From: an uncultured Clostridia bacterium
GTDB taxonomy: Bacteria > Bacillota > Clostridia > Christensenellales > Pumilibacteraceae
Reading direction: 5' to 3'
Assembly (NCBI GenBank): GCA_947178255.1
Contig: CAMWXP010000001.1
Coordinates: 1-64,000 of the forward strand
Length of the DNA: 64,000 bases
Shown here: positions 11,076 to 26,224 of the stretch, in pieces
Layout: every line of letters starts with the position of its first letter
Position numbering within the stretch: the stretch's first letter is position 1
Translations under genes and position numbers: made by a program
The notes under the pieces: generated by a model
The model's database searches: none
Seen by the model: the letters and a program-made list of their open reading frames with translations, nothing else
What the model was told of the DNA's origin: nothing

Positions 11076-11583
11076 TGTATTGAACACCTCGTTTGTATTA
11101 TAACATACTTTTACCGCAAACTCAAACAAATATATCATATAAAACCATATAAATAAAATCGGCGCAATCCAATCCTTAATATCCCGCCAAACAAAAACAC
11201 GCCTTTCGGCGTTTTCTGTTTTGGCGTGTGTACGACGAAATCTCGCGTTTGCGAAGTGTATACTACTAAATCTATCGCGTCCATGAAAAAGCTCTTTATC
11301 AGCTACGAAGCTATTATATAATCACCCCCCCCCAAAAAAAAAGTCAAAAATCCAAACGCCACGGGTGTTTTTATTTGTAACCCACTATCCACTTTATAAC
11401 TTCCAATTCGTTATTTTTCCCACTATTACTATCGCTCGAAATATTATGTGGTGAGTCCATTTAATAAATGGATGTATGCGCCCCTCACATAAGACGAACC
11501 TCGTTTTGCATATAAATGCTAAATTGACAATACTTTCATTTTGTACTATAATATTTATAATATTGATTGTGGAGATAATACTA

Positions 11584-12810
11584 ATGAATACACAACTTGT
11601 AATTTTAGGAAATGGATTTGACAGGCATTGCGGATTAAAATCTGATTATGAAAGCTTTTTTAAAAGTGAGATTCTTGATTGCGAAGCGGAAAATAGCAAC
11701 ATATTAAAAATGCAAGATAATTGCACTGGCTTTTGGGAAACTCTTTTATTCAAATATTACAAACAAAACCCACATCATAATAAGAATTGGTGTAATGTAG
11801 AGGCTCTTATTCAAGACACTCTTGAACTATTATATTTTGGTAAAAGTAAATGGTTGGGCGAAACTGTATATAGCATTCGCGATATAGCTCTTCAACGTGC
11901 TAAATCAAAGCAATTTTTTCAAGAGTCAAACGATTTTGCAAGTTTATTAATAGACTATAGTTCTAAGTTTTTCTCTAAATGTTTGCAAGAAAATAGTAGC
12001 TGTAATGAAAAAGAGTTGTTTGCTCAATTATCTGAAGATTTAGTTACAGAACTACATAATTTTGAGAAGAAATTTTGCAAATATATTAAATACCAAATCG
12101 AAACTAATCATTTTGAATATGAGATCAAAGCCGTTAATCTATTATGTAAAATTATAGGAATTGAACAAGTGTTTTCGCATATTAATCAAATTTTAAAAAC
12201 ACTAGTAGGTTATAACAATTTTGAGTTTAACACAGATTATGATGGTAAGCGTATTCTTACAAAGAATTTCCCCAATTTGCGCCCTGTGCATATTCTAAGT
12301 TTTAATTACACTTCTCTTTTTGACATTCTTGGTGTAAGTAGCCCTTGTAAATATACTAATGTTCATGGCAAATTGTGTAGTGAAAATTGTAGTGAAAATT
12401 GCAAGTTGTCCAACATTATCTTTGGTATTGATGATATGTCGATAAAAGCACATAGCAATGAAAATGATTTAAGATTATTTAGTAAAACTTATAGGAAAAT
12501 GGTTACTACAAGTTCACCTACTAAAATTTTACCACCCAATAATAATATAACAGAGATAAAATTTTACGGTCACTCTCTTAGCGAGGCAGATTATTCATAT
12601 TTCCAAAGTATTTTTGATTATTATAACATCTACAATAACTATAATGTAAGTTTATTTTTTTATTATTCAAAAGGATATGAACAGCCCGATGCTATCTATC
12701 GTATGATAAATGAATATGGCAAAACCATTCCAAATCAAGCACAAGGCAAAAATTTAATACACAAGCTCCTTTTGGAAAATCGATTACGAATTCAAGAAGT
12801 TAAGGAATGA
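11584..12810 (+). CDS. AbiH-family abortive infection protein
   Basis: MNTQLVILGNGFDRHCGLKSDYESFF N-terminus typical of AbiH; C-terminal KFYGHSLSEADYSYFQSIFD. Confidence 0.82.
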   Translation: MNTQLVILGNGFDRHCGLKSDYESFFKSEILDCEAENSNILKMQDNCTGFWETLLFKYYKQNPHHNKNWCNVEALIQDTLELLYFGKSKWLGETVYSIRDIALQRAKSKQFFQESNDFASLLIDYSSKFFSKCLQENSSCNEKELFAQLSEDLVTELHNFEKKFCKYIKYQIETNHFEYEIKAVNLLCKIIGIEQVFSHINQILKTLVGYNNFEFNTDYDGKRILTKNFPNLRPVHILSFNYTSLFDILGVSSPCKYTNVHGKLCSENCSENCKLSNIIFGIDDMSIKAHSNENDLRLFSKTYRKMVTTSSPTKILPPNNNITEIKFYGHSLSEADYSYFQSIFDYYNIYNNYNVSLFFYYSKGYEQPDAIYRMINEYGKTIPNQAQGKNLIHKLLLENRLRIQEVKE

Positions 12811-13240: not shown

Positions 13241-13278
13241 CGCTTGAATATTGTGCTATAATTTTAATAGGTGCAAGA

Positions 13279-14040
13279 ATGAAAAATTGGTTTACAATCG
13301 ATAAAATAGACGAAATAACTTACATCATAAGTGAGTACCGTCATTGGGAAGAAACACACTGCTACCTGTTAATCGGGGGCGAGCGTTGTCTATTGATTGA
13401 TACGGGACTTGGTATTTGCAACATTTACGATGAAGTTCGTAAGCTTACAAATAAGCCAATTATAGCGGTTGCAACCCACATACATTGGGATCATATAGGT
13501 GGACACAAATATTTTCCCGATTTCTATGCTCATAGAGCCGAGTTGGATTGGTTAAGTGGCAAATTCCCTCTGTCGCTACAAACTGTCCGCAATATGGTTA
13601 TAGACCGATGCGATTTACCCGAAAACTTTGACATAAGCGGTTATGAAATGTTTCAAGGGACACCGACAAAGGTTTTGAACGGTGGTGAGACTATTGACAT
13701 TGGAAATAGGAAAATCAAAGTCTTACATACGCCGGGGCATTCGCCCGGACACATGTGTTTTTGGGAGCAAGAACGAGGTTATATTTTCACAGGCGATTTG
13801 ATTTACAAAGACACCCTTTTTGCATATTATCCGTCAACCGACCCGGACGCATATCTTAACTCACTTGAAGCAATAGCTGCATTGCCGGCAAAAAGATTAT
13901 TCCCCGCCCATCATTCGCTTGATATTCAACCCGAAATTGCGATTGAGATGAGAGATGCTTTCCGTGAACTTAAAACACAAGGTAAACTGCATCATGGTGC
14001 GGGAGTATTCAAATATGCCGATTGGGCAGTATGGTTGTAA
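13279..14040 (+). CDS. MBL-fold metallo-hydrolase
   Basis: ATHIHWDHIGGH, HTPGHSPGHMCF, FTGDLIY, FPAHH motifs. Confidence 0.92.
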   Translation: MKNWFTIDKIDEITYIISEYRHWEETHCYLLIGGERCLLIDTGLGICNIYDEVRKLTNKPIIAVATHIHWDHIGGHKYFPDFYAHRAELDWLSGKFPLSLQTVRNMVIDRCDLPENFDISGYEMFQGTPTKVLNGGETIDIGNRKIKVLHTPGHSPGHMCFWEQERGYIFTGDLIYKDTLFAYYPSTDPDAYLNSLEAIAALPAKRLFPAHHSLDIQPEIAIEMRDAFRELKTQGKLHHGAGVFKYADWAVWL

Positions 14041-14054
14041 AATCCAATATTTAT

Positions 14055-15593
14055 TTAATCACAGATATATAATAAAACCCAGTTAAACCGTAAGTGGTTC
14101 AACTGGGTTCCGTTATGGTGGTGCGCGGTTGTTAAAGAATGAACACCGCCGCCCGCCGCTTCTATGTCGTTTAACAATTCTTCGGTGATTTCGACTGGTT
14201 GATTGCCGGCATTGAATATCATTGTGATTTTATCGTCATATAGGTAGATTTTATTTACAAGCGCCGTGACGAGCGCCTTGCGGTATTTTAGATCATTTGC
14301 ATCGCCGTTGCGTATTTGCGTAAGGAAGAACTTGACTTGCGGCACGGTGATACCTACGAGCATTGTGTTTTCGGCGGCAAGCTGCTTTTGAAGCTCTACA
14401 CGCTCGGCATTCTTCTCTTGAATCCGTGCGGTTATTTGCTCGGCGGCGGCTCCCGTTTCCAATGCTCTCAGTAGATTATCAACTGCCCTTTCATTATCTT
14501 TCAGCAGCTTCTCAAGGCGGCGAGCATTCGAATGCTCTCGATCATGCTCCGATACCTTGACGACCTCTTTGGCAATAATCTCAATATTTTCGTCGGTAAG
14601 CAATTCGCGGCACTTAGCTATGACAAGATTTTCGATATACTCTTTGCCGACAATCTTTTTGTCGCATAGCTTTTTCTTTGCGTTGTTACAAGCATAATAA
14701 CGGTGTACTTTACCGTTGCGCGATGTGCCGCCGTACCCAGTCATCATTTCTTTGCACTTGCCGCAAAACAGCTTTGTAGTCAATATGTACTCGTCGCCTG
14801 TTTTGCTTCGTGCCGGCGCTTTCTTGTTTGCTGCCATAATCTCTTGCACCTTGTAGAATAATTCGTCGGAGAGTATGCGCGGCATTCCGCCCTCAATCTC
14901 CATATCATTGAACGTGTAATAACCAATATACCGTTTGTTTTTCAAAAGCTCATGTAGCGAGTTTTTATTGAACGGCCCGCCGCGAATTGTTTTGATTTGC
15001 TGTTCATTCAGATACTCGTTGATTTGGGCAACTGTCTTGCCGTTAGCGTACATCTCAAATATCTTGCGAACGTAAAATGCGGCGGTTTCGTCTATACTGA
15101 ATGTTTTATCGGGATTTACTTTATATCCAAGCGCAACACTTCCGCCGGTGTAGAGGCATTTTTCGGCGTTTAGCGTCATGCCACGCTTTATCTTTTGCGA
15201 CAGCTCAGCCGAATAATATTCCGCCATGCTTTCAAGCACTCCCTCAATAAGTATGCCGCTTGCATCGTCGGTTATATTTTCCTTTGCCGAGAGAACGCGA
15301 ACGCCATTCTTTTTAAGCCGTGCCTTGTATATTGCGCTGTCATAACGGTTACGCGCAAAACGGTCAAGCTGATAGACAAGCACGAACTTAAACAGCTTTT
15401 TCGAGCTGTCCTCTATCATACGCAAAAATTCGGGACGGTTGTCGCTCGTTCCCGATAACGCACGGTCGATATATGTTTCTATGACCGTGTAATTGTTGCG
15501 CCTGGCATACTCATAACATTCTTTGAGTTGCCCCTCAATGCTTGTTTCGTGCTGATTGTGCGACGAAAAGCGGGCGTATATGACTACGTTCAT
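14055..15593 (-). CDS. Large serine recombinase (resolvase + recombinase + Zn-ribbon)
   Basis: NVVIYARFSSHNQHETSIEGQLKECYEYA; VYQLDRFARNRYDSA; KLFCGKCKEMMTGYGGTSRNGKVHRYYAC. Confidence 0.95.
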   Translation of the reverse strand: MNVVIYARFSSHNQHETSIEGQLKECYEYARRNNYTVIETYIDRALSGTSDNRPEFLRMIEDSSKKLFKFVLVYQLDRFARNRYDSAIYKARLKKNGVRVLSAKENITDDASGILIEGVLESMAEYYSAELSQKIKRGMTLNAEKCLYTGGSVALGYKVNPDKTFSIDETAAFYVRKIFEMYANGKTVAQINEYLNEQQIKTIRGGPFNKNSLHELLKNKRYIGYYTFNDMEIEGGMPRILSDELFYKVQEIMAANKKAPARSKTGDEYILTTKLFCGKCKEMMTGYGGTSRNGKVHRYYACNNAKKKLCDKKIVGKEYIENLVIAKCRELLTDENIEIIAKEVVKVSEHDREHSNARRLEKLLKDNERAVDNLLRALETGAAAEQITARIQEKNAERVELQKQLAAENTMLVGITVPQVKFFLTQIRNGDANDLKYRKALVTALVNKIYLYDDKITMIFNAGNQPVEITEELLNDIEAAGGGVHSLTTAHHHNGTQLNHLRFNWVLLYICD

Positions 15594-16387
15594 TACTTGC
15601 CACCACCGTGCTTATTCGCCCACAACGTAAACGCTTGTTGTAACTTCAATAATTTCAACGCAAATATGTCACTACTATACAAAAAACCGTCATTCAATTC
15701 GCCCGGAATACGCCAATCAACATATTGGCCTGTTTCGGGGTCCACTTTGTCTACAAATTCAGCTATTTCATAAACTCCAGTAGTCGGCTTATATCTAAAT
15801 AAATCATGCAAGGCTTCCATGATAGATAAGGAACTGTCATCGTCGGCATCAAATAAAGCATTGATTACATTACATGTGGGTGAAGCGTGTTCAAGAAAAA
15901 ATAGAGGTAGTGATGTCCCGTCATCTTCAAAACACTCGATGATACCTAATTTTTCGGCATAAGCATATTTTTCTTTATCAGAGCGCTCTTTAAGTTCAAT
16001 ATATCTTTTATATTGTTCGACAGTTTCTATTGCATCGCTCGGTGTGCTTTTATTGGTAAATCCATACAATATACGCATTTCGTACATTAGCGAAGAAATA
16101 ACTCTATCCGATAGCCCCGTTTTACTGTGGATAGCTTGAAGATCAATATCAGGTGTCGGAGCTTTTGATGCGCCTATAAGATAATCTGCCGACACATTGA
16201 GATTTTGTGCAATTTTACATAATATTTCCGCATCCGGCAATCTTTCGTCATTAACATAATACGAAATAGTTTGTGGGGATACGCCAACATCCGCAGATAG
16301 ATCCTTCTGATTTTTGCCGCGTTTCTTCATAATTTCTTCAAGTCTCTGTGCGAATACTCGTTTTTCTTTATTTGTTGGTTTTTTCAT
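15593..16387 (-). CDS. XRE-family repressor-like protein
   Basis: FAQRLEEIMKKRGKNQKDLSADVGVSPQTISYYVNDERLPDAEILCKIAQNLNVSADYLIG HTH; adjacent to recombinase; start at 16387 or 16426. Confidence 0.85.
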   Translation of the reverse strand: MKKPTNKEKRVFAQRLEEIMKKRGKNQKDLSADVGVSPQTISYYVNDERLPDAEILCKIAQNLNVSADYLIGASKAPTPDIDLQAIHSKTGLSDRVISSLMYEMRILYGFTNKSTPSDAIETVEQYKRYIELKERSDKEKYAYAEKLGIIECFEDDGTSLPLFFLEHASPTCNVINALFDADDDSSLSIMEALHDLFRYKPTTGVYEIAEFVDKVDPETGQYVDWRIPGELNDGFLYSSDIFALKLLKLQQAFTLWANKHGGGK

Positions 16388-16403
16388 TTTGAATTGCCCT
16401 ATA

Positions 16404-16497
16404 ATTACATTTTTGTTGATTTGCATATAAGAATAACGACAATCGTTGACTTTTGGTTTCTCTTATGCTAATATTTATTATATCAACAAATGTAATG
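16404..16497. promoter_or_regulatory. Divergent control region with inverted operator-like motifs
   Basis: attacatttttgttgat (16404-16420) and atcaacaaatgtaat (16482-16496) in the gap between repressor and rightward genes. Confidence 0.4.
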
Positions 16498-16541
16498 GTT
16501 GTCAAGTAAAAGTAAACACTTGCAACAAAATGAGGATAAAT

Positions 16542-16733
16542 ATGAAAAAAGACATTATAGAGGCGACAAAAAACGCGCGTCGTGAATATCATAAAGAATG
16601 GCGAGCAAAGAACAAGGACAAGGTACGAGAGTATAATCGGCGCTTTTGGGAAAAGAGAGGCGCTGCCCTTATAGCCACACAAAAGATAGGGAGTAACGAC
16701 GACGAAAGCAGCTATGACGAAAGCGACAATTAA
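16542..16733 (+). CDS. Small basic hypothetical protein of the mobile element
   Basis: MKKDIIEATKNARREYHKEWRAKNKDKVREYNRRFWEKRG. Confidence 0.6.
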   Translation: MKKDIIEATKNARREYHKEWRAKNKDKVREYNRRFWEKRGAALIATQKIGSNDDESSYDESDN

Positions 16734-16905
16734 TACAAAGCAAGCGCATGAATTTGCGCTCGCCTTTGTATCGGATATATCAAACTACATACGCGCACAC
16801 GAGGCTGAATACTTAGCGTATCTCGAAGCAACGGGACAAGCTGATGATAGCTACCAACCGAGCAACAGCGGGGCGGCGGGATTTAACGCGCTTAAAGGAG
16901 AATAG
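16714..16905 (+). CDS. Small hypothetical protein of the mobile element
   Basis: 63-aa ORF overlapping upstream gene; translationally coupled pattern. Confidence 0.5.
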   Translation: MTKATINTKQAHEFALAFVSDISNYIRAHEAEYLAYLEATGQADDSYQPSNSGAAGFNALKGE

Positions 16906-16911
16906 TTTAGC

Positions 16912-17568
16912 ATGAAAGACACATGTGTATTTTATAGAGATTTCCGCAATGCAGCTCGTAATTTTTCGGCGGACAAGCGTGCGGCTTTTTATGAAATGGT
17001 GTTGGACTACGCTATGGACGGCATAAAGCCGCCGCCCGATAGTGAGTTTATCGCGCATTTTGAGCTTATAAGATCGCGGCTTGATGCGGATATTGCAAAG
17101 TACAACGCAAAGAGCGAGAACGGAAAAAAGGGTGGCGCTCCGAAAGGCAACCAAAACGCTAAAAAACAAGCTAAAATAACCAAAAACAACCAAGAACAAG
17201 CTAATTCAAGCAAAACAAGCCATAATGTCAATGTTAATGAATATGACAATGCGACTACTGTCGTAGTCAACGCGCGCGAGGCTTTTTGCAAAGCCTATGG
17301 CGTAACAGTGGACGACACGACGACGGACGGCATAGACTTTGATTCTTTGAGGAAGGCATATTCGGAAAGTGCAAAATTTTTACAAACACGCCCAGCAGCC
17401 AAGCGTATGTCGTGGATTATAAAAAACTACGACAAAATCATTGCAGGAACATATCAAGATTATGCTACACCCAATAGTCGCACAACTGCACCACAAGGCA
17501 TAACACACCACACCCCAGAGGAATTATTGGCGGCGGTAAATTTTATTGAAATCACGGAGGATGACTAA
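16912..17568 (+). CDS. DUF6291-like phage/ICE protein
   Basis: FYRDFRNAARNFSADKRAAFYEMVLDYAMDGIKP...KYNAKSENGKKGGAPKGNQNA. Confidence 0.75.
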   Translation: MKDTCVFYRDFRNAARNFSADKRAAFYEMVLDYAMDGIKPPPDSEFIAHFELIRSRLDADIAKYNAKSENGKKGGAPKGNQNAKKQAKITKNNQEQANSSKTSHNVNVNEYDNATTVVVNAREAFCKAYGVTVDDTTTDGIDFDSLRKAYSESAKFLQTRPAAKRMSWIIKNYDKIIAGTYQDYATPNSRTTAPQGITHHTPEELLAAVNFIEITEDD

Positions 17569-17876
17569 TGAACGATACAAACAACAAGCTTAATATATTA
17601 ACCGATATGTTAAAAGGCGGTGCCTTAACGAAAAACTCCATAATGTTTTCTCTCAACGTTTCGGAACGCACAGCAAGGCATTTACTTAGTGAAATAGCAA
17701 AATCCTACCCTCTTATTGCTCTAAGCGATCAGTGCGGCTACCGCATAGCAACCGGATTAAAGGATCTTGACGATGTTCGGCATGCATACAACGAAAACCG
17801 CAAACGGGCGGCGGAAATCCTTAAACGCAACAAAACGCTCGAAAAATTTATGCAAGATCAGGGAGCTGCAACATGA
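17568..17876 (+). CDS. HTH-containing small protein
   Basis: LKGGALTKNSIMFSLNVSERTARHLLSEIAKSYPLIAL resembles a winged HTH. Confidence 0.5.
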   Translation: MNDTNNKLNILTDMLKGGALTKNSIMFSLNVSERTARHLLSEIAKSYPLIALSDQCGYRIATGLKDLDDVRHAYNENRKRAAEILKRNKTLEKFMQDQGAAT

Positions 17877-18058
17877 CAAACAAACGCAAAGTCCCGCCGC
17901 CTATGCCGTTCTTTGCGGTATCAGAGCAAATAAATGAACCGCGGCGAAGCAAGAGCGAAGCAAGAGAAAACGGCTTTATGGACGTAATCATTAACGATAG
18001 CCAAGCCTTCGAGGAAGTACACATTACCAAGACAAAACCGCTGGGCGGCGGGACATAG
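17873..18058 (+). CDS. Small hypothetical protein
   Basis: 61-aa ORF overlapping previous stop by 4 nt. Confidence 0.45.
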   Translation: MTNKRKVPPPMPFFAVSEQINEPRRSKSEARENGFMDVIINDSQAFEEVHITKTKPLGGGT

Positions 18059-18129
18059 GCGTGTTTAAATCTCTATAAAAGCTTTGAATTCAAGTTCAAA
18101 ATAAAATCTTATTTGTCAAGGAGGATATT

Positions 18130-18408
18130 ATGACAAAAGTAACAATTGACGGCAAAGACTATACAGCGTGTTTATCAGGATCCGTGACAGTCGAATTTTT
18201 CAATAACCATGAGAAGTCGATTTATTTGCGACAAGGCACGCTACATCTCAAAAACACCGACGTCGAGCGCTTCCCTATCGGCGCAATTATAGAAGTAACG
18301 GCGCAAAACACCCCGACATTACAATTTGCAATTGTAACGGACACGAGTACGGAAGCGGCGCCACACACCAAAGATTGGGGTTTCTCTCACACTATTACAT
18401 TTGCTTAA
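18130..18408 (+). CDS. Hypothetical, phage-like small protein
   Basis: RBS aggagg upstream; ordered in a + strand operon. Confidence 0.55.
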   Translation: MTKVTIDGKDYTACLSGSVTVEFFNNHEKSIYLRQGTLHLKNTDVERFPIGAIIEVTAQNTPTLQFAIVTDTSTEAAPHTKDWGFSHTITFA

Positions 18409-18422
18409 CGGAGGGCGTTTTA

Positions 18423-18923
18423 ATGACACACGAGATAATAATCCGCAACGAAACAAGCAACGCAAAAAAGTCGCCCATAGCCGGCAGCGGAACTGCGGCA
18501 ACCGATACTACATCTAACATTGGCGGCGGCATGACGTTACAACAGGGCGCGGCAAAGGGATTGGTGGCGGTCAACAGCTACATAAAGCCGTTTGTCGACC
18601 AAATGATTACGCAGCGCGTGACTACCGTGTCGTTGCGTACAGGCGCACAAGAACTTGAGGAGCGCATGTCGTTTAGCTTAAATGTCGCACAAAAAGTGGT
18701 TGGCTTTGGCTCGTCAGTGGCAATGGGCGCACTCGTCGGCGGTGTGCCTGGTGCTATTGTTGGCGGCGTCATGAGCTTAATGACAATGGGTATCGAATAT
18801 TCAAACAAGCAAGAAAAAATTAATTTGCAACACGGCGTTGAAAATATAGGCTTGCGCTACGTGAACACCCGCGCAGGCGGCTCGGTCGCTTCGTTCAGCG
18901 GTAGACGTCAAAAGCATCAGTAG
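18423..18923 (+). CDS. Hypothetical protein with glycine-rich hydrophobic segment
   Basis: GFGSSVAMGALVGGVPGAIVGGVMSLMTMGIEYS. Confidence 0.55.
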   Translation: MTHEIIIRNETSNAKKSPIAGSGTAATDTTSNIGGGMTLQQGAAKGLVAVNSYIKPFVDQMITQRVTTVSLRTGAQELEERMSFSLNVAQKVVGFGSSVAMGALVGGVPGAIVGGVMSLMTMGIEYSNKQEKINLQHGVENIGLRYVNTRAGGSVASFSGRRQKHQ

Positions 18924-18927
18924 GAGG

Positions 18928-21783
18928 ATGTCTATGCTAACACAAATTACTATCAACAGTCAAAATGTCCGTGTTGCTATGCCCATAAAATGGAATGCGC
19001 TACTCGACGAGCGGCTTGATGAGTGTCGATTATCCGTTCGACAAGTGACGACCGAACTATATCCAATTGGCGCACAAGTCAAGATAACTGTAGGCTATAC
19101 CGATAAAGATTTTATTATATCCGCTGACGAAAGCGTGGAAGTGCCTCCCGGGAGCGGCAAGTACGACCACGAGCTATCGCTCATAGAGCCGACGAAACTG
19201 CTTGAGGGCATAGTAGTTGAAAGTTTGACTTTTGCCAATAGTCTCGGACACATGTATGGCAATTCGGAAGCATCTCCGGCATACGCATCGTCGCAAATAA
19301 AAAATGATTTATTGCCGCTTGCAAATAACTGGTTACGCCGGACATCGCCCGCACGAACATTGTACGTGCCCGAATTGGGAAATCTAATCAAGTTCAAGAA
19401 CTATACAGGTCAATATAAGATACAAATTTATGCTCTCGTCTATCGTTATGATGAAACAGAGTATGATAAGCAATTAAGTGTAATAAATAACGAATACCAA
19501 GACCCATACTATATTGAACCGATACCGATTAAGATTACGGAACCGGGCATTTATCGTATACATATTCAATGGTCTTCGAGCGATGCGACATATAGGTTTT
19601 CAAATTCGTACATCGATTACTATTTCCAATGCGCGGATAATTTAACTCCACTTCCCAAGTGGAATATCTGCTCTGTAATCAACCGTGCCCTAAACCTCGC
19701 CGAGCCGCATTTGCAAAGCGTATCGCCGCGCTTTATGCTCGACCCTGCGCAGGCGGCGGAGTTTGAAAAAATACTCGCGCCCGAATTTGCGTTTACCAAA
19801 TGCACGCTCAAAGAGATACTCGACCAAATAGGCGGCTTTATACACGGCATACCGCGCCTTATACGCGGCGAGAGCGGCGAACTCGACACTATTCACTACG
19901 ACATGCTCAACGGCACCGAGGAAGCGCTGATATCGTCGCAGAACATACATTACATATCCGAAACGCACTCGCAAAACATAGAGGACTATGTGACCGAGCT
20001 CGACAGTACGGTCGATAATCTTGTCAATACGCTCAACAGCGGCGAGGGCGCAGTTACCGAGCCGTACGCGGGCGGGTTTAAGTCGGTACGCAGCGAGGAA
20101 GCGTACGCACGCATCGAAGAGGGCAATATGGTTATTTCCACGTCACTGCCCATATATTCGGTGCAAAAGCTTGAAGTTATAGACACAAAAAATCAAGTCG
20201 GCGACATAACTGCCTATGTATTTGAGGGCGCGGAATACGGGCGACTGTCATCCTTTGACGGTAAATACCCCACCAGTAAGGCGTATGCACTTTATTACAA
20301 TCTCGGCGAAAAGAATATCAAGGGCCTGGGATTTAAATCCCCTACCGTTTTGGGTGGTGCAGGCGCAAAATACTCAATAGCTAATATAATCAAAGCTGCA
20401 ACCGGCGATGACAGTATTACATCGGACTGGTGGAGCGGCGATGATGATACTGCAGGCAATTATCCCAAGCTTGCATTCCGTATAACATATACACCTATAT
20501 TCTCGGCGCGTATTCTGCAGCACAAGCCGTATGTTGAGCCCGGTGCGCTCAAGCTTGCAATGGTATACAATCAAGGTGCTAACCTCGTAGAAACGCGATA
20601 TTACGGCGAAAATATGCGCGGAGCTGTTGCACGCATGGGCAACCCCGAATTTACGCGCAGCTATCGCATGCCCAATCTTACTTACATACCGAAAATCGGC
20701 GAAATATTCAAGCGCCGCGGCGACGAGTACTACATCAGCTCAGTAACGGTTGCCGTCTATTCGACATGCGTAGAATTTACCGTCGGCATGAGTAAAGACT
20801 TTAACCGCTTGTCGCAGTACATAGGCATTAATTCTGAATGGCGTGCGTACGAGGTCAGCGAACGCAAGGCGTACAACAGGGATATAATCTATCGCGATTT
20901 TTGCATTATCGGCGATAGTGTGGATAATGACGGAATGGCATTAGCGCGCGAAAGTGCAATGTATTATATTGCAAACGCATTTTCGCATACTGCATTATTT
21001 TCCGAACCACTTACGGTTGCACAGGTCACAACATACGACAACTCGAATAAACCTTATCCCATGACACTCCCGGTTGTATCTACCGCTTTTGGTAACGCTA
21101 TGGTATTCTCGTTCGGTATGGCGGATAACTACTCCGCTGGGTCAAAAAGTGTGTATGACGGCAATGGAGATATAATAGGCTATTGGCAAACGGATGTGCC
21201 GTATGTGGATTACTACGGTCGCGCCAAAAGCATGAAGTTTGAGCTTGGTCCGTCGGGAACGGCTCTCAACTTCGGCGACGCAGCAACATTTACTCTTCCG
21301 CAAGGTGATGAATATGTCGGATATGGCGCAATAGGCACCCCGGACAACAATCAACTTGAAATCGACAAGAATGGTACGGAGATTCTGCACATAAACTATC
21401 AGCTTGAGTTTGTGAGCAACTGGAACGACCTTATAATCGGTTCCGCATTGGCACGGAACTGCCTCATGGTAAGTAAGCGCGAAACAAACAAAAATGGTGA
21501 CGCCGTGCATGCGGCGGCGGTGTACGTTGTCAATAAGAAAGTCGGAAGATTCGACAGCGAAATCGATTTAACTTCTGCAATGCTCATACAAGACTACCGA
21601 AACAACATGCCGATTGTCGCTGACAGCATTATGCTCGGCGACATCCAATCTACAGCCGTTGGCGTGGCTTGGGCGATTGCCGATCAATCCACAGGAGAGA
21701 TATTGCTTGCTCAAAATATGGAAATATCCGTCGGTGACGTAATCCATTTGCCAAAAATTTCACTTAGACACAAATTATCTTAA
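18928..21783 (+). CDS. Phage tail/baseplate-like structural protein (951 aa)
   Basis: Large beta-rich ORF in the phage-like operon; call is by size, context and composition, no diagnostic motif. Confidence 0.45.
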   Translation: MSMLTQITINSQNVRVAMPIKWNALLDERLDECRLSVRQVTTELYPIGAQVKITVGYTDKDFIISADESVEVPPGSGKYDHELSLIEPTKLLEGIVVESLTFANSLGHMYGNSEASPAYASSQIKNDLLPLANNWLRRTSPARTLYVPELGNLIKFKNYTGQYKIQIYALVYRYDETEYDKQLSVINNEYQDPYYIEPIPIKITEPGIYRIHIQWSSSDATYRFSNSYIDYYFQCADNLTPLPKWNICSVINRALNLAEPHLQSVSPRFMLDPAQAAEFEKILAPEFAFTKCTLKEILDQIGGFIHGIPRLIRGESGELDTIHYDMLNGTEEALISSQNIHYISETHSQNIEDYVTELDSTVDNLVNTLNSGEGAVTEPYAGGFKSVRSEEAYARIEEGNMVISTSLPIYSVQKLEVIDTKNQVGDITAYVFEGAEYGRLSSFDGKYPTSKAYALYYNLGEKNIKGLGFKSPTVLGGAGAKYSIANIIKAATGDDSITSDWWSGDDDTAGNYPKLAFRITYTPIFSARILQHKPYVEPGALKLAMVYNQGANLVETRYYGENMRGAVARMGNPEFTRSYRMPNLTYIPKIGEIFKRRGDEYYISSVTVAVYSTCVEFTVGMSKDFNRLSQYIGINSEWRAYEVSERKAYNRDIIYRDFCIIGDSVDNDGMALARESAMYYIANAFSHTALFSEPLTVAQVTTYDNSNKPYPMTLPVVSTAFGNAMVFSFGMADNYSAGSKSVYDGNGDIIGYWQTDVPYVDYYGRAKSMKFELGPSGTALNFGDAATFTLPQGDEYVGYGAIGTPDNNQLEIDKNGTEILHINYQLEFVSNWNDLIIGSALARNCLMVSKRETNKNGDAVHAAAVYVVNKKVGRFDSEIDLTSAMLIQDYRNNMPIVADSIMLGDIQSTAVGVAWAIADQSTGEILLAQNMEISVGDVIHLPKISLRHKLS

Positions 21784-21793
21784 TTCATTTTTG

Positions 21794-22722
21794 GGGTTTT
21801 CGGCGTTTTCGGCAGTCCTAAAAAACACACAATCATTCCGATTTTTGCGGACACATATAAAAAATATATAAGCACTGCAAAACACGCATTTGCCGCCACC
21901 CTATTTGGGCGGCGGTTTTTGCATTTATAGAATAGGATTTTCGGACACGATAAAAAGCCTAATTCGCAACGAACTCCGAGCGAACTCCGAGAAATGACAT
22001 CATTTAACCCGTGAGGAAGCTGTGAGAAAAAACATGAGAAGTGGGCGATGCTACTCTGTACTGCAAGATTGTTGACATTAATTAACGTTTGATTTTTTGA
22101 TTATCGGGCAAAATCAAACAACAACCGCCGCCAGTTTTTATAACTACGTTATAACCATTGAAATTTGATTATTTTATTTGATTTTTGATTTCGCGCATTT
22201 TTGCGTATAACCGCCGCCCCGCTCTATTGGCATAGAATACAGAGATTAAGACCACCCCACCACAGCAAGGGTTTTCGCAGTTTTTGCAGGTCCTAAAAAA
22301 GGAGTTTTCCGAATTTTCCGAAGCTATAAAAAAGCATGAGTAAGTTTTCGGCTTTTTCGGCTATCCTAAAAAGACGAGGAGTAGTGAGTTTTCGGAGTTT
22401 TCGGACATCCTAAAAACGCGCGCACGCGCACGCGCGAGAGTTACCGCTTATAACAATAAAGCCACCGACCTTGCCCATGAGCTCGGCATTTACATGCTCA
22501 CGCCGCCGCCACGTTGACAAAACCGCCCCTATTTGCCACAAAACACCTTCTGTCGATAAGCTATAGACCGCCGCCAAAAAATGCCGCACAATCAAAATGA
22601 CGGCTTTTCTTGCGACATCGTTGCACGTGTGCATTTATTCTCGGCGATGGGTTTCCCAAAGTTTTCGGAGTATAGAAACCTTGCGCGTGGGAGTTTTCCG
22701 AGTTTTCCGAGGTCCTAAAAAA
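21794..22722 (+). repeat. Non-coding field of ~32-nt repeats built from paired TTTTCxxx half-sites followed by CTAAAAA
   Basis: Copies at ~21794, 22269, 22301, 22341, 22385, 22690, plus degenerate copies near 21840, 21947 and 22648, all in + orientation. Confidence 0.8.
21891..21920 (+). terminator. Rho-independent terminator
   Basis: tgccgccaccctatttgggcggcggttttt downstream of the 951-aa gene. Confidence 0.7.
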
Positions 22723-22769
22723 GATTTTGCACTCAAATTCAAAAACTAAATTAAAACAAAGGGGATTTT

Positions 22770-23036
22770 ATGACGATAGAACAAAGGAAAGAAATATTCG
22801 CAAAGGAAGTCTGGACGATCTCAGATATTGCCATTGTTTTCGAGTATGACAATTTAAGTCCTACGGGCGCATATAATGCGGCAGCGACAAAAATGCGCGA
22901 GATTAAACGAAACGGATTCGACCGACTTCACATTGAGGGGCGATTACACATTCAAGATTATTTTGATTATTATAATCTTCCGCCCTATCGGTATGTTGAC
23001 CACTTATCGAATCAGTTATTAGACAACAAAGACTAA
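22770..23036 (+). CDS. Small hypothetical protein, possibly DNA-binding
   Basis: 88-aa ORF with RBS aaagggg; EVWTISDIAIVFEYDNLSPTGAYNAAATKMREIKR. Confidence 0.55.
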   Translation: MTIEQRKEIFAKEVWTISDIAIVFEYDNLSPTGAYNAAATKMREIKRNGFDRLHIEGRLHIQDYFDYYNLPPYRYVDHLSNQLLDNKD

Positions 23037-23159
23037 AAAAGATTAGTTATTATCATTTAAAATCGTCCACCACCTTATCAAGCGTTTTTGGGGGCGAAAC
23101 TCTAAAAAACGCACCGTTCCCGATGCGCTCTTACTTGATTTATCAAAATATAGGATATT

Positions 23160-23363
23160 TTATCCGTTGCTACTGTCCAGCTTCTTGCGCATGCGTTCCT
23201 TTTCAAAATGGTTAGGGTCGAACACCCGATTGCATTGAACATGGAAATCGTAGTTGTCCTCGGCCACTACAACGTAAGGCTGCGCCATGAACTCTTTGTC
23301 CGACAGAACTTTGCCGTCTGCCATGACATGAGTTATTTGTGGATGAACTTGTTTGCGCTTCAT
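23160..23363 (-). CDS. Small hypothetical protein
   Basis: ORF MKRKQVHPQITHVMADGKVL... Confidence 0.35.
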   Translation of the reverse strand: MKRKQVHPQITHVMADGKVLSDKEFMAQPYVVVAEDNYDFHVQCNRVFDPNHFEKERMRKKLDSSNG

Positions 23364-23501
23364 TTTCAGTGCCAAAACAGTATGCACTTATATTGTATGC
23401 GCTATTACTTAATATATGCCTTATATTTTCCCACATTAACATGACGATTTTAGTTTCAAGTGTCGCGCAATGGCGGCGGTGCAGCCGTATATTTCTTTTT
23501 A

Positions 23502-23813
23502 TCATTGCGACATTGACACATTCGTTATTTTTCCATCTTTTATTGTTGCCGTTATCTCGGAATGCTTTGTTCCGCCGCCCAGTACGCCCTTCCATTCATC
23601 AAGAGTGTAAGAAACAAGCTTGCAATGCTCGTCTATTACTACCGTTTTAGAGGGCGAGCCACATTTTGATAACATTTCAGCTTCGGTCATTCCCACGTAG
23701 AGATTTGCTTGTTTGTCATTGTACGACGATTTTTTCATAAGCGGCTTGATTATGCACAAGTAAATTACTACTGCAACAGCCGCAACTGCCAATAGAATGT
23801 AAAGCACTTCCAT
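23502..23813 (-). CDS. Small membrane-anchored hypothetical protein
   Basis: MEVLYILLAVAAVAVVIYLCII TM helix, then GMTEAEMLSKCGSPSKTVV (BamE/SmpA-like loop pattern). Confidence 0.6.
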   Translation of the reverse strand: MEVLYILLAVAAVAVVIYLCIIKPLMKKSSYNDKQANLYVGMTEAEMLSKCGSPSKTVVIDEHCKLVSYTLDEWKGVLGGGTKHSEITATIKDGKITNVSMSQ

Positions 23814-23823
23814 AATTTTCCTC

Positions 23824-24033
23824 TCAAAGCTTCTCGCCATTCGGCAAAATAAAATTAACCTCAAGCGTTGCCCCGACAGCATGCGCTATACGTTCAAGCT
23901 CGGATAATTTGAAATCGTTACGACCTAATTTGTTATACAAATTGGCACTGCTTTGCCCGCTTTTTTCAGCTATTTGCTGTACGCTTATCTTACTTTTAAC
24001 AGCTAATATGCGTATCTTTTCTGCTATGTCCAT
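23824..24033 (-). CDS. XRE-family HTH regulator
   Basis: IRILAVKSKISVQQIAEKSGQSSANLYNKLGRNDFKLSELERIAHAVGATLEV. Confidence 0.8.
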   Translation of the reverse strand: MDIAEKIRILAVKSKISVQQIAEKSGQSSANLYNKLGRNDFKLSELERIAHAVGATLEVNFILPNGEKL

Positions 24034-24060
24034 AATATAGTACCTCCATATCTCTATAAT

Positions 24061-24175
24061 AACACTAAATAATGTTAAAAAGCAAGTATTTGATTAAAAA
24101 TAATACAAAAAAGTTTTATTTTTCTTGAAAAATGATATAAAATCGTTTGACAATGACACTAAATAGTGTTATAAT
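24061..24175. promoter_or_regulatory. Divergent promoter with two operator palindromes
   Basis: aacactaaataatgtt (24061-24076) and acactaaatagtgt (24156-24169); the latter lies between TTGACA (24147-24152) and TATAAT (24170-24175). Confidence 0.75.
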
Positions 24176-24222
24176 GTACTTACAATCAACGTTGATAAAA
24201 ATTCATTCACGAGGTAGTAACC

Positions 24223-24678
24223 ATGACACTTAACGAAATCTTGGCAAAAAACATCACAAACGGCAGATTTTTTGCAATCGAAGCCGTAACCGAAAAGAAG
24301 CGTGGCGGCATAGCGTACCACAAACACAGCTACTTAACAGCGCAATTTGGCTGCAGCTATGAGAACTTGGCGGCGGTCAAGGCTATGGGCGAACGCGAGA
24401 GCAGCCGTCCGTCGTGGTTTGAACACACCGAACACGACAGCATTGTGCGAAGCAAGAAAGACGCAAGCAAGCTGTATTTGCAAATCATGAATCCCGACAA
24501 TTTCCGCGTATCGTACAGCTTGGCGGACGGAACGCCTACTACGCGCGACGAACTCATTGCAATGGGCGCAATCAAAGACGAGCCGAGCGAAAAGCCCTTG
24601 ACGCTTGTCTACGCGCTCGACAGCATAGTGTCAATCACATACAAAGAAAACAGCAAAAAGGAGGGAATGGCGGCGTAA
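24223..24678 (+). CDS. Hypothetical protein of the mobile element
   Basis: 151-aa ORF downstream of the regulated promoter. Confidence 0.6.
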   Translation: MTLNEILAKNITNGRFFAIEAVTEKKRGGIAYHKHSYLTAQFGCSYENLAAVKAMGERESSRPSWFEHTEHDSIVRSKKDASKLYLQIMNPDNFRVSYSLADGTPTTRDELIAMGAIKDEPSEKPLTLVYALDSIVSITYKENSKKEGMAA

Positions 24679-24752
24679 TGCCGCTCCGGCACAAGGCGGC
24701 GGAACTCAAACGAACAAAGAGATCCGCCGCCCCACTGCTGAGATAATGGACT

Positions 24753-25175
24753 ATGAACAACAAACAGAACACTGACGACATAATGTTAGGTAACTATCGT
24801 CAAGATGAGTGCTTTGCACTCGAAGTAACCGACTACGGATTTTACCCGCGCATATTGCCCGGGGACACCGTAATCGTACATAGACAACCCGACGTCGAGA
24901 ACGGCGAACTTGCAGTGGTTATGATAGACAGCGACACAAACACAGTATTACGACGTATAAAGCGTGACGCGGACGGCGGAATGATTTTGACGGCTGACAA
25001 TCCGATATTAAAGATGACCCAAAACAAACGATATGAGCCGATTGTAATATCCGCCGCCGAACGCTACCGCGTCCATGTATTCGGCAAAGTAATATCGCTT
25101 ATGCGGGATATGCGAAACGACGCGGTCAAGCGCGATTTAGAAAACGCAAGGGCGGCGGATGATGACAATAAATGA
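24753..25175 (+). CDS. S24/LexA-CI C-terminal-like protein lacking HTH
   Basis: FALEVTDYGFYPRILPGDTVIVHRQPDVENGELAVVMIDSDTNTVLRRIKRDADGGMILTADNP matches an S24 peptidase fold. Confidence 0.75.
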   Translation: MNNKQNTDDIMLGNYRQDECFALEVTDYGFYPRILPGDTVIVHRQPDVENGELAVVMIDSDTNTVLRRIKRDADGGMILTADNPILKMTQNKRYEPIVISAAERYRVHVFGKVISLMRDMRNDAVKRDLENARAADDDNK

Positions 25176-25281
25176 ACTTTGCACAGCGCTCCGAGAGATA
25201 GAGCGGGCGGCGGATGATAAAATACGCGATCAGTTAATTGTAGAACTTGTGAAACGGCTGACAACATACAAATCAAAATAA
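25159..25281 (+). CDS. Possible 40-aa ORF overlapping the S24-like gene
   Basis: MMTINELCTALREIERAADDKIRDQLIVELVKRLTTYKSK; overlaps previous stop. Confidence 0.3.
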   Translation: MMTINELCTALREIERAADDKIRDQLIVELVKRLTTYKSK

Positions 25282-25367
25282 TCCGTAATTCTTAAAATTT
25301 TTTTCAAAAAGTATTGACAAGAAAAAAATTCGTGGTATACTGTATAAAATTTTTTGGAGGTGTAACT

Positions 25368-25607
25368 ATGGCTGACAAAAAATATGAACCCGGTATTTCG
25401 GTATATACCAACAGCAGTGGTCTGAATATAACATGGAACCGAGAAGGCGGCGCTCATACTTCAATTCACTCCAATTCGCAAACGACTGGAAAGCCGGTTA
25501 TTAGTGAAAAAATCCCCGATTTGGCTCATTACCAAAGGGTATACGATGAATCGGGAAACGTTGTGAGCGAGACATTAAGAGACGAAAACGGCAATAAAAT
25601 ATGCTAA
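25368..25607 (+). CDS. Small hypothetical protein
   Basis: MADKKYEPGISVYTNSSGLNITWNREGG with ggaggtg RBS and strong terminator after. Confidence 0.65.
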   Translation: MADKKYEPGISVYTNSSGLNITWNREGGAHTSIHSNSQTTGKPVISEKIPDLAHYQRVYDESGNVVSETLRDENGNKIC

Positions 25608-25624
25608 CAATCTAAAAGCATAAT

Positions 25625-25663
25625 AAAGGCGGTAGCTATTCAATTAGAACAGCTACCGCCTTT
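25625..25663 (+). terminator. Rho-independent terminator
   Basis: aaaggcggtagct-attcaattagaac-agctaccgccttt. Confidence 0.85.
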
Positions 25664-25739
25664 ATAATAGATTGATTACAACTCGAACGTGGCGGCAAAA
25701 CCGCCGCCAAAGTAGTAAAGTGTTCGTGTAATCTTGTTG

Positions 25740-26126
25740 TGGTGGAGATGACCGGATTTGAACCGGTTTCCGACGCGGGGTTACGCGGACTTCTACAGGT
25801 TTAGTTTATTGCTTGGTGTCCGGTGCGCCGCCGCAATACACAAAGGCGGTGCGCCGCAAGGTCTTGTTCCGTTCTGGGTTCGACCAATCCCCCGCGCGGG
25901 AGCCCATCTACATTACGCCCGAGCATCTGCCGATAGGATACAGAGTCGAACGTGCAGCTAAACTAAGCTGCGAATGCCATTGCCGGAGCCGCAACGGGAG
26001 CTGCGAACTTCATGACTTTGGCGTTTTCGTTTTTGTTGGCAATTAAAGCCTTTTGCGTTTTTAGATAGCCGACCCTATCACCTGCTTTCCGTCGCTGAGC
26101 CGCGCCGTCGAAGCCAATACATCCCC
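25740..26126 (-). ncRNA. ssrA: tmRNA with 25-codon tag ORF ANKNENAKVMKFAAPVAAPAMAFAA
   Basis: 5' GGGGATGTATTGGCTTCGACGG ... 3' GGTTCAAATCCGGTCATCTCCACCA; GGGGAUG pairs with CAUCUCC; tag codons 26040 to stop at 25963. Confidence 0.95.
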
Positions 26127-26224
26127 ATAATAGTATGGCTTTTGCCGTGCATATTAATATACACGATTTTTGACATAATTGCAACTGTTTAAAGAATATA
26201 TTTATGCGATTATTTTCTTGTTTT

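Follow-up and report, generated by a model that had tools for sequence, protein, structure and literature searches.

Packaging Sites in Phages and Their Satellites

Few of the sites at which phage DNA packaging begins are known, and they are short and degenerate; the helper phages of satellites are therefore hard to name (PMC11389934). In phage P22, the small-terminase gene terS (gene 3) holds an asymmetric 22-bp pac sequence, for which the support is mainly genetic (PMC9611059) and a 12-bp core has been given (PMC11226127); binding of TerS to pac in vitro is weak even in P22 (PMC9611059). The P22 record annotates pac at bases 4-25 within terS, where it reads E-D-L-S-E-V-V. The pac region of the Bacillus phage SPP1/SF6 contains direct repeats at or near the terS start that are candidate small-terminase sites (PMC4737164). 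Among the phage-inducible islands (PICIs), SaPIbov4, SaPIbov5 and EcCICFT073 are packaged via a short pac or cos site common with the helper, and EcCICFT073 and SaPIbov4 have two cos sites each (PMC6092414). The PLE satellites of Vibrio cholerae are moved by a large serine recombinase (PMC6002521).

The locus described here lies in a 64-kb stretch of DNA from an uncultured, gut-type Clostridia bacterium (the window), in which an integrated element carries six repeat units within a gene-free field. We read this field, with a probability of about 0.6, as an array of pac-type (packaging-initiation) sites on a phage satellite, intended for different helper terminases. As in P22, the site in question is asymmetric, about 22 bp long and found at aligned codons of terS, where in P22 genetic evidence points to small-terminase recognition (PMC9611059, PMC11226127). 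P22, however, has one site per genome and no evident 9-bp direct repeat, whereas the element has six alleles, which lie outside any terS gene. It likewise differs from the above PICIs in that its six different alleles are adjacent and come from at least two terS types, and in carrying a large serine integrase together with a virion-type gene. The repeats of SPP1/SF6 are other repeats, placed around the terS promoter and start, and form no multi-allele array; the PLEs differ in host and gene content, and no pac array was found described for them in the literature searched. PICIs with a helper's pac or cos site are thus already known, and what appears to be new is the presence of several different alleles in an array, of which no report was found in the literature searched.

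An Element Integrated at the tmRNA Gene

The element is 11,630 bp long (14116-25745); its insertion point is the 3' end of ssrA, the tmRNA gene. A genome of the same genus, G004, represents the empty site: the flanks 13251-14121 and 25734-26190 abut there, with 90% and 98% identity and a 12-bp overlap, and the gene left of the integrase adjoins the tmRNA gene. The junction comparison with this empty site places the left attachment core, TGGTGG, at 14116-14121; the right core, also TGGTGG, lies at 25740-25745 and overlaps the CCACCA 3' end of the tmRNA (25740-26126, Rfam). The large serine integrase (512 aa; 14055-15593, minus strand) matches Pfam Resolvase, Recombinase and Zn_ribbon_recom as well as phrog_95 (E 6e-120), and the 3' end of its gene extends past the attachment core into host DNA. 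The minus strand also encodes a CI-like HTH repressor of 277 aa (15593-16426; HTH_3, E 8e-15; phrog_8), and the plus strand a DUF6291 protein of 218 aa with weak matches to phage primosomal families (16912-17568). To the right of the gene-free field, an 88-aa protein without a family match (22770-23036, plus strand) follows directly after the array as an open reading frame, and a small HTH repressor of 69 aa (23824-24033, minus strand; phrog_3, E 8e-5) and an S24 peptidase or LexA-type repressor half (24753-25175, plus strand; Peptidase_S24, E 1.5e-13) are encoded beyond it.

A compact integrated element with an integrase, a repressor and att sites is PICI-like, as is the absence of its own head and terminase genes: the element ORFs scanned gave no match to terminase, portal or capsid families. 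Phrog_309, the family of the terS genes discussed below, is absent from the element's own genome. The element departs from the PICI pattern in retaining virion-type genes. At 18375-21783, this terminase-less element keeps, on the plus strand, the gene of a 182-aa protein (18375-18923) that is 69% identical to a late-region gene of the G005 prophage and that tblastn places at 8639-9178 of L167, followed by the gene of a 951-aa virion-type protein (18928-21783) with homologues among the late genes of the G005 prophage (68%), in L008 (42%) and in L293 (45%). Family searches gave no match for the 951-aa protein. An element that keeps these two homologues of full-prophage late-region genes might alter helper particles. 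No relatives of the integrase were found among viral contigs, and the relatives it does have share almost no other genes with the element; sibling elements, sought via the integrase and the 951-aa protein, included none with the array.

Six Units in a Gene-Free Field

Judged from the ORFs of the window, the gene-free field covers 986 bp (21784-22769); the original prediction had put the gap filled by repeats at ~930 bp. It holds six units of ~31 bp, all on the plus strand; the site is made up of a direct repeat with 9-bp spacing and a CCTAAAA tail. Unit 1 (GGGTTTTCGGCGTTTTCGGCAGTCCTAAAAA, 21794-21824) and unit 4 (AAGTTTTCGGCTTTTTCGGCTATCCTAAAAA, 22342-22372) have the variable half-site triplet GGC, unit 2 (GGGTTTTCGCAGTTTTTGCAGGTCCTAAAAA, 22269-22299) has GCA, unit 5 (GAGTTTTCGGAGTTTTCGGACATCCTAAAAA, 22386-22416) has GGA, and unit 3 (GAGTTTTCCGAATTTTCCGAAGCTATAAAAA, 22302-22332) and unit 6 (GAGTTTTCCGAGTTTTCCGAGGTCCTAAAAA, 22691-22721) have CGA. 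The ending of the third unit, first given as TCCTAAAAA, is in fact GCTATAAAAA. The unit starts are separated by 475, 33, 40, 44 and 305 bp, and units 1-6 stand in frames 2, 0, 0, 1, 0 and 2, which agrees with the irregular spacing and lack of a common frame noted at the outset. The same-orientation units that had been predicted are all present at their places, and the claim that the halves are alike within a copy and unlike between copies holds as well: the two 9-bp halves agree at 51 of 54 positions over the six units, where the average of all re-pairings is 41.8, and of the 720 possible pairings the true one alone reaches 51.

Single-half units are also present. The clean one, TTTTCGGACACGATAAAAA, which the prediction had placed near 21947, sits at 21938-21956 (plus strand, repeat family D2) and resembles the second half of the site in terS L050, TTTTCGGACACTATAAAAA. 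The half-unit expected near 21840 exists, though in very degenerate form, and a further degenerate one, AGTTTTCGGAGTATAGAAACC, lies at 22660-22680 (plus strand, repeat family D6), where its 9.8 bits with the terS matrix described below fall within background.

A strict form of the motif matches four times in the window and never in 100 dinucleotide shuffles. Its occurrences in the source genome are confined to the field, as opposed to scattered, and of 396 genomes sampled from the order the source genome alone has it. When a second array was sought across the class, single hits were all that came up, and the array is known from this one genome. Rfam has no match in the field. A CRISPR array, with its regular spacing of identical repeats, was considered for the units and rejected on account of the irregular spacing.

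Matches between the Units and Phage terS Genes

Searched with the motif, viral contigs contain 20 exact matches, of which two fall within phage small-terminase (terS) genes, and a scan with the consensus gave 48 stretches, about half of which lie in frame within terS genes of several types. The in-frame stretches always read x-F-S-x-F-S-x-[VAT]-[IL]-K and directly follow the helix-turn-helix. Loose AT-rich motif scans of viral and genome contigs returned mostly chance matches and were set aside. Against named phages and plasmids, short-query blastn with the units also gave chance matches only, because the named phages carry other alleles, and protein-guided retrieval succeeded in its place. 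Searches with the A-type and Q-type forms, which served as controls, yielded no terS beyond that of L293.

Five terS genes were compared directly with the field. The terS gene of L293 is identical to unit 1 at 28 of 28 nucleotides and to unit 4 at 26 of 29, and that of L008 agrees with unit 2 at 27 of 30, with unit 5 at 29 of 31 and with unit 6 at 30 of 32. Unit 3 matches the terS of L296, which is of a different type, at 34 of 36 positions, and unit 5 also matches the first part of the terS of L298 (21/21). All units are in sense orientation relative to terS, no match extends past the covarying site into the rest of terS, and besides the units the field has no homology to these five genes. 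At the sequence level, the units are homologues of a DNA site inside the phages' own terS genes, and different units match different alleles.

The relationship is also recovered by a weight matrix built from 28 terS sites, with the units of the window excluded, and scored on both strands of the 64 kb. The six units are exactly the top six positions of the window, at 32.6, 27.8, 34.0, 25.0, 37.2 and 37.1 bits for units 1-6 (range 25-37), while the maximum in six shuffled windows is 15.2 bits. A weak match of 17.8 bits is found on the minus strand at 23538-23564, within the ORF 23502-23882.

A Covarying Repeat inside terS

In the phage genes, the site occupies the codons just after the HTH. In a small sample of named phages, those of Terrisporobacter, Anaerostipes, Flavonifractor, Ruminococcus, Clostridioides, Lactococcus and Fusobacterium, terS has a 9-bp-spaced direct repeat at the same codons, with half-site pairs that differ in sequence between phages (TATCCGGAG/ATTTCGGAG, TATAGTAAT/ATTTGTAAT and CATCTGGAG/ATTTTGGAG, for example) and a following tail close to CCCTAAAAAAGGG. 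Over 32 distinct terS genes, covariation at a lag of 9 reaches z values of 5.3-7.2 at codons 48-50 and 4.1 at codon 51, and z does not exceed 2.6 outside codons 48-51. Where residues 50 and 53 are unlike (S/C, G/R, N/Y, P/S), the last two bases are still common to both halves in 10 of 22 terS genes, compared with a permutation mean of 3.0 and a maximum of 8 in 5000. The rare serine codon TCG occurs in both halves in 10 of 13 terS cases, versus 5 of 42 EFSEFS-encoding sequences of other kinds (p 2e-5). Because the terS genes are related, the permutation figures overstate their independence, and the rest of the same genes provides the better control. The covariation of the half-sites is a property of the DNA rather than of the protein, and this rule in terS explains why the halves of each unit change together. 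No description of a 9-bp-spaced covarying repeat in phrog_309 terS was found in the literature searched.

The terS sites of L008, L018, L293, L296 and L298 lie at the mapped pac position of the aligned P22 terS, where E-D-L-S-E-V-V of P22 aligns with E-F-S-E-V-L-K of the terS site. The in-gene site of the L008 terS family may accordingly be pac, the link to P22 being one of position and partial similarity. The 9-bp-spaced covarying repeat with its CCTAAAA tail is a general feature, at codons 48-54 in L008 numbering and at the P22 pac position, of the phrog_309 terS genes of L471-L478 and L540-L563. AYST[LF]REYK is the recognition-helix pattern in both terS proteins with TCGGCA half-sites, those of L293 and L478, and sets them apart from the terS proteins with TCGGAG; these two cases hint at coevolution of terminase and site.

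A Proposed Packaging Array and Alternative Explanations

Six different copies of a phage terS site in a gene-free stretch give the element the look of one built for packaging by several helper phages. An infecting phage would supply a small terminase that binds two half-sites one turn apart; as the terminase changes, both half-sites would change together. A satellite without terminase or head genes that shows several alleles adjacent could have its packaging started by any infecting helper, and the common orientation of the six sites would make all packaging proceed in one direction. The virion-type gene, which is unusual for a satellite, and the fact that a single helper would need just one site speak against such an array. 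The joint proposal, in which a "key ring" satellite holds one site allele per helper terminase class and a large group of phages follows an undescribed rule of a coevolving 9-bp repeat in terS, appears to us evenly balanced between true and false.

The main rival, which we hold to be unlikely, takes the array as a decoy: instead of, or besides, serving the packaging of the element, the sites would bind the small terminase made by infecting phages, titrating it and so blocking helper packaging. Several sites with several alleles would suit such a sponge, to which the matches with terS and the matrix ranking apply equally, and interference with helpers is common among satellites (PMC5052747, PMC6092414). 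Six sites, however, would face many phage genomes per cell, their single orientation matters to packaging and not to a sponge, and an integrated mobile element would still need an exit route. It is more doubtful still that the units are short pieces of terS captured for another nucleic-acid role, such as antisense or spacer-like silencing of the terS mRNA of several phages. The near-exact matches of 28-36 nt to the terS genes of different phages are what capture would leave, but the matches stop where the covarying site stops, the units are in the sense orientation, and the regular spacing of CRISPR-like arrays is absent.

The two readings first offered for the repeats fare worse. An array of iterons or operators, bound by an HTH protein that the element itself encodes, is very improbable, despite the repeated same-orientation sites, the gene-free region and the several HTH proteins encoded by the element. 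Selection by one protein would favour one sequence, but from copy to copy the two halves vary together, and the copies differ at the very bases that iterons conserve; the sequence occurs in phage terS; and in place of near-identical repeats beside a replication initiator gene, the element has no replication protein recognised by family searches. Least credible, and already largely refuted, is homogenisation by slippage between the halves of a dispersed repeat or decayed gene. Tandem 9-mers can indeed slip, but 32 divergent terS genes show half-matching at a single constant position, some of them with halves that encode different amino acids, and slippage is therefore not supported. The units do read E-F-S-x-F-S-x-V-L-K like terS, so that in-frame conservation, named at the outset as the mark of a decayed gene, takes an unexpected form; their three reading frames and the lack of any other terS sequence around them show that they are not a decayed gene, and a dispersed repeat is contradicted by their absence elsewhere in the source genome. 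The more general expectation, that a mobile element carries sites recognised at the level of DNA, is by contrast supported.

If the packaging-array reading is true, many phages of Firmicutes and Fusobacteria would have a terminase site that a sequence rule can locate within terS, and the element would advertise the helper alleles it uses, so that helper-satellite pairs could be read from sequence. A multi-allele pac array would be a new strategy against dependence on a single helper, and natural covariation would offer a test of the long-standing question of DNA recognition by small terminases.

Candidate Helpers and Neighbouring Mobile DNA

Homologues of the 951-aa protein are likewise encoded by two phages whose terS sites match units 1 and 6, L293 and L008. 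The large terminases (terL) of L008 and of the G005 prophage, the latter from the same host genus, share 79% identity, and no terL of the L008 or helper kind was found in the element's own genome. The G005 prophage (L167/L409) lies on contig 54 of G005, as does ssrA; it is a full prophage and belongs to the same virion lineage. Its terS is of a different type, and the site did not turn up in the stretch scanned.

A 444-aa AbiH-like protein is encoded just beyond the left end of the element (11476-12810, plus strand; PADLOC AbiH, E 1.9e-5). The source genome (G000) encodes three more serine integrases on contigs C39, C5 and C31, 41-44% identical to that of the element, suggesting that it harbours further mobile elements.
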